DNA of 38,815 nt. Source: Actinomycetales bacterium (GTDB lineage: Bacteria > Actinomycetota > Actinomycetes > Actinomycetales > Dermatophilaceae). Under the pieces are notes generated by a model, which saw nothing but the letters and a program-made list of their open reading frames with translations, was not told the DNA's origin and made no database searches. Every line of letters begins with the position of its first letter. The first letter of the stretch is position 1. This document shows positions 4,110 through 38,815 of this stretch, piece after piece. Where the stretch lies: assembly GCA_012729695.1 (NCBI GenBank), contig JAAYCP010000093.1, positions 1-38,815 on the forward strand, in the 5' to 3' direction. A program made the translations under genes and the position numbers.

Positions 4110-5594
4110 TCAGCGGAGGGTGCCGGTGTTGTGTCCGATGGCCGCCTGCATCGTGCGCACGACGAGGAACGCGTCGCGCAGGTGACCGCGTTCGAAGTGC
4201 GAGAGATCGTCCGGGTCGAGGAAGTTGTCCGGCTGCCGGCCGGCCTCGACGAGCCGCGCCTGGTGCTCGAGCCGGATGGTGGCGATGACGTCATATGCGG
4301 CCACCAGGTCCCGACCACCGGACGCCGAGATCACGTCGGCCCGCTCCGCGGCCAGCAACCGGTCCCGGGTGTTCACCGCCGTGAGCCGGCCCTTGAGGGC
4401 GTACACCCGGCCCAGGTCGACGACCGGGATGACACCGCTGTGCTTGAGGTCGATGGTGTGCTTGTGCTCCCCGGAGCGTGCTGTCGCGATCTGGCGGAGG
4501 AAGTTCAGCGGCGGGTGGTGCTTCATCGAGTTCGAGATCATGTGTGCCACAAAGATCTGGTTGGCGGCGGCCCTGCGCAGCGTGTCGCGCTGGAGCTCGC
4601 TGAACAACGTCGCGTCCCCGCTGATCGGGCGCAGGTCGAACATCACCGAGGCCAGCATCTGCGCCATCGGATCCGGCTGCTCGATCCACGCGTCGAAGTA
4701 CTGCCGCCAGACCCGGACCGGTTGGCGCCACTGCGGATTCGTGGCCATCATGCCGCCCGAGCAGTAGACGTAGCCGCACTCGTTGAGCCCGTCCGAGACG
4801 ATCCTGGCGAGGGCTGCGAAGTACTCGTCGTCGCCCGCGCTCATCGAGTCGTCGATGATCAGGCCGTTGTCCTGGTCGGTCACACCCGTCTGCTCCTGGC
4901 GACCCTGCGAGCCGCAGGCGGCCCACACATACGGCACCGGCGGGGGTCCGAGCTCGGCCTCGGCGAGAGCGAGGAGGCGGCTCGTGGTGGCATCGGCGAC
5001 GTCGGTGATGCGTCGGGTCACCGTCGAGTGCGGCTGGTTGCTTCGCACGAGCTGCACGAGAAGTCTGGGCAAACCTGCGGTCGCCCGCACCATCTCCTGG
5101 ATCGACGTCGCCGAGGCGATGTCGTAGGTGAGCAGGTCGCTGGCCATCGCGTGCACCCTGGTCACGTCGGTGACCGTGACGATCCCGATGAGCACCGAGT
5201 CCTCGACGATCGGGACGTGCCCGATGTCGAGGCGGAGCATGAGCCGGAGCAGGTCGGCGACCCGTGCTGTCGGTGGCAGCGAGGTCGGGTTCGGCGTCAT
5301 CGCGTCGGCGACCGGTCCGCTCGGCGCGCGCCCCTCGGCGACCACCCGGTTGGTGAAGTCGCCGTCCGTGATGATGCCGACCAGTCCCGAGTCGTCGACG
5401 ACGGGCAGGCACGAGATGTCCCGGTCGCGCATGAGGCGGGCCGCCTCAGCGATCGTCGTGCCGGGGTCGCAGGAGATCGGCGAGCGGGTCATCAGCTCCC
5501 GCACGCGGGTATCGATGAGCGGCTCGGTGCGCGCCGCCGGCTCCGGCCGGTCGAAGAAGCCTTGCCGACCCGGTGCACTGCCGTCCTGGGGCAT
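4110..5594 (-). CDS. CBS-domain DUF294 nucleotidyltransferase-like protein
   Basis: Paired CBS domains (IDTRVRELMTRSPISCDPGTTIAEAARLM...) then CGSQGRQEQTGVTDQDNGLI nucleotidyltransferase-like motif. TACCCT-N8-ATG upstream. Confidence 0.9.
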   Translation of the reverse strand: MPQDGSAPGRQGFFDRPEPAARTEPLIDTRVRELMTRSPISCDPGTTIAEAARLMRDRDISCLPVVDDSGLVGIITDGDFTNRVVAEGRAPSGPVADAMTPNPTSLPPTARVADLLRLMLRLDIGHVPIVEDSVLIGIVTVTDVTRVHAMASDLLTYDIASATSIQEMVRATAGLPRLLVQLVRSNQPHSTVTRRITDVADATTSRLLALAEAELGPPPVPYVWAACGSQGRQEQTGVTDQDNGLIIDDSMSAGDDEYFAALARIVSDGLNECGYVYCSGGMMATNPQWRQPVRVWRQYFDAWIEQPDPMAQMLASVMFDLRPISGDATLFSELQRDTLRRAAANQIFVAHMISNSMKHHPPLNFLRQIATARSGEHKHTIDLKHSGVIPVVDLGRVYALKGRLTAVNTRDRLLAAERADVISASGGRDLVAAYDVIATIRLEHQARLVEAGRQPDNFLDPDDLSHFERGHLRDAFLVVRTMQAAIGHNTGTLR

Positions 5595-5831: not shown

Positions 5832-5867
5832 CGTACCAGAACGTGACAATAGGAACGTTCTGGTACG
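5832..5867 (+). repeat. 36-bp palindromic repeat, copy 1
   Basis: CGTACCAGAACGT-GACAATAGGA-ACGTTCTGGTACG; 13-bp perfect arms. Confidence 0.95.
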
Positions 5868-5881
5868 GCTCGTACCGGGCT

Positions 5882-5923
5882 GCGCGTACCAGAACGTGAC
5901 AATTGGAACGTTCTGGTACGCGC
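5882..5923 (+). repeat. 36-bp palindromic repeat, copy 2 (arms extended to 16 bp)
   Basis: Core 5885-5920 CGTACCAGAACGTGACAATTGGAACGTTCTGGTACG; GCG/CGC flanks extend the stem; loop variant AATTGG. Confidence 0.95.
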
Positions 5924-32514: not shown

Positions 32515-32550
32515 CGTACCAGAACGTGACAATAGGAACGTTCTGGTACG
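32515..32550 (+). repeat. 36-bp palindromic repeat, copy 3
   Basis: CGTACCAGAACGTGACAATAGGAACGTTCTGGTACG between convergent genes. Confidence 0.95.
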
Positions 32551-37614: not shown

Positions 37615-38085
37615 ATGACGCATCTCTGGCTCTCCGCCGACCAGCAACAGGCCTGGCGCTCGATGGTGTCCATGCACACCCGGCTGCACGCCCACCTCGG
37701 GCGGGAGCTGCAGGCCAACTCCGACCTCTCCTACGCGGACTTCGTCGTCCTCGTCCAGCTCACCGACGCCGAGGACGACCGTGCCCGCATCTCCGAGCTC
37801 GCCGACCAGCTGCAGTGGGAGCGCAGCCGGCTGTCCCACCACCTCAAGCGGATGGAGGCCCGCGCCCTCATCGAGCGGACGAGCTGTCCCGAGGACGGCC
37901 GCGGACAGTATGTGTCGGTCACCCCGATCGGCCGGGCCGCCATCGAGCAGGCCTCCCCCGAGCACGTGGCTCTCGTCCGCTCCCTCGTCTTCGAGGACAT
38001 GACGCCTGAGGAGCTCGAGGTCATCGCCCGGGTGAACGAACGGATTCTCCAGCGGCTGGCTCAGGTCCCGCAGAAGGTCACGTAA
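37615..38085 (+). CDS. MarR family transcriptional regulator
   Basis: LSADQQQAWRSMVSMHTRLHAHLGRELQANSDLSYADFVVLVQL...LADQLQWERSRLSHHLKRMEARALIERTSCPEDGRG; TATTCT-N6-ATG sets start at 37615 (ORF track 37567). Confidence 0.93.
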   Translation: MTHLWLSADQQQAWRSMVSMHTRLHAHLGRELQANSDLSYADFVVLVQLTDAEDDRARISELADQLQWERSRLSHHLKRMEARALIERTSCPEDGRGQYVSVTPIGRAAIEQASPEHVALVRSLVFEDMTPEELEVIARVNERILQRLAQVPQKVT

Positions 38086-38815
38086 GTAGCGGTGAAGCGC
38101 TCCGGAGCCGGCTCGGCGTAGCGGCTCCACTCCGGCCGCTCCTCGAACGGATGACGCAGCACCTCGAGGAGCTCCTCGAACGGCATGAGGTCGCCTTCGC
38201 GGGCCGCGTCCAAGGCCTCCTCGACGAGGTGGTTCCGGGGGATGTATGCGGGGTTCACCTCGTCCATCCGCCGCGCCGTCTCCTCAGGGTCGGCTCCGAC
38301 GCGCAGCAGCGCCGCCTGCCAGCCCTCGACCCACTCGGCAAGCGCCGTCCCTCGTGCAGCCGCCTCGCTGTCCGCCCCCGTCTCGCCAGGCTTCTTCTCT
38401 GCCGTACCAGAACGTGACAATAGGAACGTTCTGGTACGCCCCGAGTCCGACTCCCCGCCTGCGACTGGCTCGCCAGACTCCTTCTCTGCCGTACCAGAAC
38501 GTGACAATAGGAACGTTTTGGTACGCCCAGGATCCGGGCCGGCAGCCCCCTCTGCAGGCGTCTCGCCCCGCAGGGTCTTCGCGAGCACACGGAACGTGCC
38601 GGTGAAGTCGAGCGACTCACGCTCCATCACGCGGAGCAGACCCGCGATGAGCGCGTCGGCGGTCTCGCCGTCCACCCCCGCAGGCAGACCGAGCTTGGCC
38701 GCCATCCGCCGACGGAAGGCAGCCGCATACCTGTCCTCGAAGTCCCCGACCCGGGTCGTCGCCTCCTCCACCACCTCGTCCGGCGCCTCTGTCAGCCCCG
38801 GCTCGACGGCGAGAG
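38061..38815 (-). CDS. selO: SelO/YdiU family protein adenylyltransferase (partial, N-terminus beyond window)
   Basis: RRMAAKLGLPAG...ADALIAGLLRVMERESLDFTGTFRVL, WVEGWQAALLR, NPAYIPRNHLVEEALDAAREGDLMPFEELLEVLRHPFEE...; frame stays open past 38774 to the edge; convergent 25-bp overlap with marR. Confidence 0.9.
   Translation of the reverse strand, partial: LAVEPGLTEAPDEVVEEATTRVGDFEDRYAAAFRRRMAAKLGLPAGVDGETADALIAGLLRVMERESLDFTGTFRVLAKTLRGETPAEGAAGPDPGRTKTFLLSRSGTAEKESGEPVAGGESDSGRTRTFLLSRSGTAEKKPGETGADSEAAARGTALAEWVEGWQAALLRVGADPEETARRMDEVNPAYIPRNHLVEEALDAAREGDLMPFEELLEVLRHPFEERPEWSRYAEPAPERFTATYVTFCGT
38403..38438 (+). repeat. 36-bp palindromic repeat, copy 4 (inside selO CDS)
   Basis: CGTACCAGAACGTGACAATAGGAACGTTCTGGTACG. 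Confidence 0.95.
38490..38525 (+). repeat. 36-bp palindromic repeat, copy 5 (inside selO CDS, one substitution)
   Basis: CGTACCAGAACGTGACAATAGGAACGTTTTGGTACG; exactly 87 bp after copy 4. Confidence 0.95.

Follow-up and report, generated by a model that had tools for sequence, protein, structure and literature searches.

A short REP-like palindromic element of an actinobacterial genus, usually intergenic, occurs in frame within selO

Tandem palindromes within the selO reading frame

The window (the whole stretch of 38,815 nucleotides that was analysed) ends within selO, encoding the protein adenylyltransferase SelO/YdiU. The minus-strand frame at 38064-38813 is uninterrupted, comprises the C-terminal 250 codons (250 amino acids) of the gene, and matches the Pfam SelO family (PF02696, 1.3e-12) and the PDB SelO entries 6eac and 6k20. 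Within this frame lie two 36-bp quasi-palindromes (38403-38438 and 38490-38525, both plus strand in our orientation of the element), spaced 87 bp start to start and in frame with the gene. Read on the minus strand the first gives RTRTFLLSRSGT and the second, with one base different, RTKTFLLSRSGT; their consensus is CGTACCAGAACGTGACAATAGGAACGTT(C/T)TGGTACG. An initial annotation of this DNA had the coordinates and sequence of both copies correct. It had also described a shared upstream sequence, CTCGCCAG(G/A)CT(T/C)CTTCTCTGC, as part of an 87-bp repeat, which was confirmed as two direct units (38360-38446 and 38447-38533, together 38360-38533) that are 83% identical and contain both elements. 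The duplication is old: the elements differ at 1/36 bases, compared with 11/44 in the adjoining aligned spacer (Fisher p 0.009), so that the element portion of the repeat is better conserved than its surroundings.

Three further copies in the window are all on the plus strand and intergenic: one at 5832-5867, a tandem copy 53 bp on at 5885-5920, and a single copy at 32515-32550, which sits between two convergent genes approximately 25 bp from each stop codon. The five copies compare with none in 100 dinucleotide shuffles of the window. The proposal that an element which is intergenic elsewhere has become coding sequence in selO is supported.

The contig stops at 38815, cutting the gene 290 bp past the insert. 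The N-terminal half of selO is on a separate contig (C239) and the middle is absent from the assembly, so the intactness of the whole gene cannot be shown. Since the gene is split in this way and contigs tend to terminate at these hairpins, an artefact of sequencing or assembly, or a pseudogene in decay, might be suspected. However, the units differ at many positions and so represent neither a collapsed nor a duplicated read, the sequence either side of the insert has coding composition in the same open frame, the C-terminal SelO motifs are intact, and the same kind of insert is found in independent genes and in a second species. We consider an artefact or pseudogene very unlikely.

The insert occupies a variable loop of SelO

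The coding insert (38403-38537, minus strand; approximately residues 93-137 of the fragment) adds approximately 50 amino acids that are probably floppy. AlphaFold gives pLDDT <50 for residues 93-137, flanked by confident helices at 70-81 and 147-171, in agreement with the earlier suggestion of a surface loop: the loop is of surface type and predicted to be disordered. In the Pseudomonas syringae SelO structure 6eac the insertion site corresponds to the stretch between residues ~375 and 397. This loop is short and length-variable among other SelO proteins. Both congeneric SelO proteins that were found (those of G003 and of G001, the latter being Nostocoides sp. F2B08) lack the inserted segment, and in the aligned SelO proteins of other actinobacteria it is likewise missing or short; no SelO match was found in a third congener, G002. 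An Rfam search of the selO region gave no real match. In Actinoplanes italicus SelO (L122:3001-3747) an unrelated tandem peptide repeat, approximately GDLAFSRTPTA, occupies the same loop, which thus seems prone to repeats.

An ancestral SelO insert that relatives have since lost is extremely improbable: no supporting evidence was found, the aligned relatives lack it, and the exact core was not recovered from other species in genome_contigs (85,462 species genomes, a collection that may omit records near the window). The repeated TFLLSRSGTAEK peptide might instead confer a new interaction or regulation on SelO, in keeping with a frame that is still open despite the divergence of the 87-bp units. 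However, the loop is predicted to be disordered, it varies in length among SelO proteins in general and carries an unrelated repeat in A. italicus, and other proteins read the same DNA in different frames. An adaptive loop is therefore unlikely, and the insert is most likely a tolerated passenger, presumably neutral, rather than a new SelO function.

Genome-wide distribution of the element

The 3.04-Mb draft genome (G000, 95% complete) contains approximately 99 copies in approximately 54 clusters. Conservation ends at approximately 36-40 bp, comprising a 13-bp stem around a 10-nt, partly asymmetric centre. Of the 36 clusters for which gene order was resolved, only three fall within coding sequences, which make up 87% of the DNA. 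These in-frame clusters, called by codon-usage scoring, lie in selO, in a type III polyketide synthase and in an RNase H/histidine phosphatase protein. Each insert coincides with a gap or variable linker of relatives: homologues of the polyketide synthase skip approximately residues 457-495, where the element is inserted, and in the RNase H/phosphatase protein it occupies the interdomain linker. SelO reads the element in the frame RTRTFLLSRSGT and the other two proteins in the frame VPERDNRNVLV; five of the six frames of the element lack a stop codon. Four clusters near gene starts whose flanks are in the same frame (L097, L115:1555, L112 and L117) were not counted as coding, as they are probably 5′ untranslated.

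The remaining clusters that could be placed are intergenic, most lying only some tens of bases from a stop codon. Between codirectional genes the element is closer to the upstream stop codon in 15/19 cases in this genome and 17/18 in G002, with median element-to-stop distances of 42 bp and 15 bp respectively and no orientation bias. The RNA hairpins are predicted at -22 to -31 kcal/mol. Stem covariation within this genome was no better than in shuffles. At two loci (L082 ~1760-1780 and L115 ~4330-4350) truncated copies (GTACCAGAACGTGAC...) that end in the loop adjoin full copies, and resemble the leftovers that slippage at a hairpin would leave. The element is also frequent at contig ends (the starts of L267, L271, L278 and L288; the ends of L265 and L106), where strong hairpins or arrays probably bring sequencing or assembly to a halt.

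Tandem copies show an apparent helical spacing

Arrays occur in the window (5832-5920 and 38403-38525) and among loci L073-L117, and in every array but one all copies point in the same direction. Start-to-start distances between neighbouring copies are 44-45, 51-56, 63-67, 74-77, 87 or 96 bp, apart from a single case of 135 bp. The classes of 44, 54, 65, 75, 87 and 96 bp correspond to steps of approximately 10.5 bp, about one turn of the DNA helix. When each locus contributed a single spacing (n=27), Rayleigh R at 10.5 bp was 0.72, a value reached in 0/200,000 trials of a ±5 bp jitter null, in a test that was post hoc, having been devised after the list of spacings was seen. The phasing persists when the 65-bp class is left out (p=0.0006). 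The spacer is a copy of a flank in approximately half of the arrays and is unlike either flank in approximately 10. These latter arrays rule out tandem duplication as the sole source of arrays. The phasing may point to a DNA-bound protein at some stage, which we put forward tentatively.

Related elements in congeners and loci shared with G002

A covariance model recovered related elements in two of the three congeners; a wide search of the other 184 genomes of the family, with stricter filters, recovered none. When the outer arms were left open in a pattern search, G002 yielded 34 forward matches, G003 a few and G001 a single one, probably due to chance. Almost all G002 copies are single, and 10-12 of 12 arm positions are paired in every full-length copy. 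The arms diverge between species yet stay complementary: among 16 hand-chosen representative sequences from three species, with G002 copies taken from the open-outer-arm pattern, 9/13 stem pairs have changed on both sides while 99% of cells are paired. Hairpin symmetry has therefore been retained between species through compensating changes. Neither the exact core nor the congener variants had a match in IMG/VR, where records near the window may likewise be missing, and the element was not found in phage and plasmid collections.

Three ORFs of G002 contain the element in frame: the RNase H/phosphatase gene, a gene for a CysG-like protein and an ORF that has no Pfam match. The RNase H/phosphatase orthologues (L098:2126-2159 here, L284:2112-2147 in G002) both carry it in the interdomain linker and in the same frame, each with its own species' sequence (VPQPGNYQVVA in G002). 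In the CysG-like siroheme synthase (L293:3394-4677) it is inside the NAD-binding domain, at approximately residues 56-68.

Comparison of flanking genes identified approximately six loci at which the two species each carry an element in the corresponding gap or gene (L083/L257, L091/L273, L092/L296, L098/L284, L107/L269 and L115/L263). The element is bracketed by alignable flanks at L092/L296 and, less tightly, at L115/L263; the others match at the gene level only. Approximately 0.9 shared slots would be expected by chance if all slots were equal, a figure that is optimistic because slots behind genes are preferred. The copies of the present genome at L091 have a G002-like arm, CCACAAC...GTTGTGG. 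We infer common ancestry of the shared loci followed by species-wide drift or replacement of the element sequence. Part of the element set would therefore be ancestral, and recent mobility is not proven.

Possible protein-binding sites or probable hairpins at transcript ends

One possible though less favoured reading is that the elements are sites of a dedicated DNA-binding protein (a regulator, chromosome organiser or recombinase) that has changed in step with its sites in each species, the copies within genes being translated by happenstance. The helical spacing, the common orientation within all arrays but one, the symmetry conserved across species with several compensated arm changes, and the six or so loci where G002 retains an element of its own sequence in the orthologous gap or gene are all consistent with this. 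However, no cognate protein was identified, the nearly uniformly single copies of G002 would make phasing unnecessary there, and a position a few bases past stop codons suits an RNA role better than that of a promoter or operator. We hold as rather doubtful the more specific idea that a putative protein reading these sites genome-wide also governs where new copies arise, which would account for whole-helix-turn spacing and for the joint shift of sequence in each species at kept loci, and would make the in-frame copies in SelO and elsewhere by-products.

Starting from the demonstrated sequence, frame, distribution and absence from relatives, we think it probable that the feature is a short, REP-like palindrome belonging to one Intrasporangiaceae/Dermatophilaceae genus, usually a 3′-end hairpin, of which a copy entered the selO loop and is carried as a tolerated passenger. 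At its usual site, a few tens of bases past a stop codon, it would give the transcript a strong 3′-end hairpin and may act in mRNA end formation or stabilisation in either orientation. One copy would have inserted into the length-variable loop of selO and then have been duplicated with approximately 50 bp of flank, or a second copy would have arrived next to it. Such an insert could survive because 36 bp is 12 codons, most frames are free of stops and the loop is disordered. A 3′-end RNA role leaves the helical spacing of tandem copies unexplained.

The palindrome had been described as mobile. Its movement is only presumed: the analysis identified no transposase, and a congener shares several of the loci. 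A search for the Y1 transposase (RAYT, PF01797) in this genome (95% complete) and in G001-G003 found none, and a control search found the E. coli copy. Spread may have depended on an enzyme other than RAYT.

Relationship to known palindrome families

The literature searched mentioned neither this element nor any coding palindrome in SelO, in line with the initial annotation; the phenomenon is, however, no peculiarity of SelO, given the two other genes here and the three congener ORFs. Palindromes within genes are already known from other phyla, REP-type palindromes among them (PMC3733652). None of the papers searched describes the element family, its lineage, its occurrence in SelO or the helical spacing. 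The present case extends protein-coding palindromes to an actinobacterial lineage. Moreover, orthologous loci in which the same slot holds a different palindrome in each species make the spread and uniformity of transposase-less REP-like elements testable, and helix-turn spacing is a clue that arrays are shaped by a DNA-bound protein and not by transcript folding alone.

Like CRISPR repeats, the element is 36 bp long with gaps of approximately 29 bp in many arrays. However, its spacers copy the local flank or are unrelated and often repeated within the array, and it is found behind genes at approximately 54 dispersed loci; a CRISPR reading was rejected, as in many arrays the spacers are near-identical or flank-like. 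In comparison with MITEs, the flanks inspected show no constant target duplication.

The element shares more with the GTAG/CGTC REPs (PMC3733652), which are genus- or species-restricted stem-loops of 20-40 bp, high in copy number and mainly extragenic, close past stop codons. At 36 bp, with 99 copies, three of 36 resolved clusters in coding sequences and the upstream stop favoured between codirectional genes, the element fits this description. Complementary stem substitutions between variants, grouped copies that bring flanking DNA and some copies in frame within genes are also common to both, REPs having been reported inside genes of many bacterial species, including clusters coding for 43-82 residues (PMC3733652). 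However, the element differs in its 13-bp stem and partly asymmetric 10-nt centre, its helical spacing and its lack of a RAYT gene; head-to-tail arrays are its rule, whereas they are under-represented among GTAG REPs; and its host is actinobacterial, Actinobacteria not being among the phyla listed (PMC3733652). Column counts of the 99 copies lacked the GTAG/CGTC terminal tag, the ends being CGTAC...GTACG, and the (C/T)GTCC with which G003 copies begin inside the stem is probably a fortuitous likeness to CGTC. With neither tag nor RAYT found, membership of this family is not claimed.

Rickettsia palindromic elements, to which the selO insert had been likened, are 105-146 bp long and in frame in 19 genes, and a guanylate kinase carrying one remains active (PMC2229807). 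The comparison is apt in that a translated palindrome that is also intergenic lies in frame at tolerated places of conserved proteins, which on sequence grounds appears to hold for selO, the polyketide synthase and the RNase H/phosphatase gene here, and for the latter gene, the CysG-like gene and one ORF in G002. However, size (approximately 36-40 bp), mostly extragenic location and actinobacterial host set our element apart, and it is better placed with short REP-like 3′-end hairpins. It is therefore filed neither as a Rickettsia palindromic element nor as a GTAG/CGTC REP, but is REP-like and behaves like the Rickettsia type.
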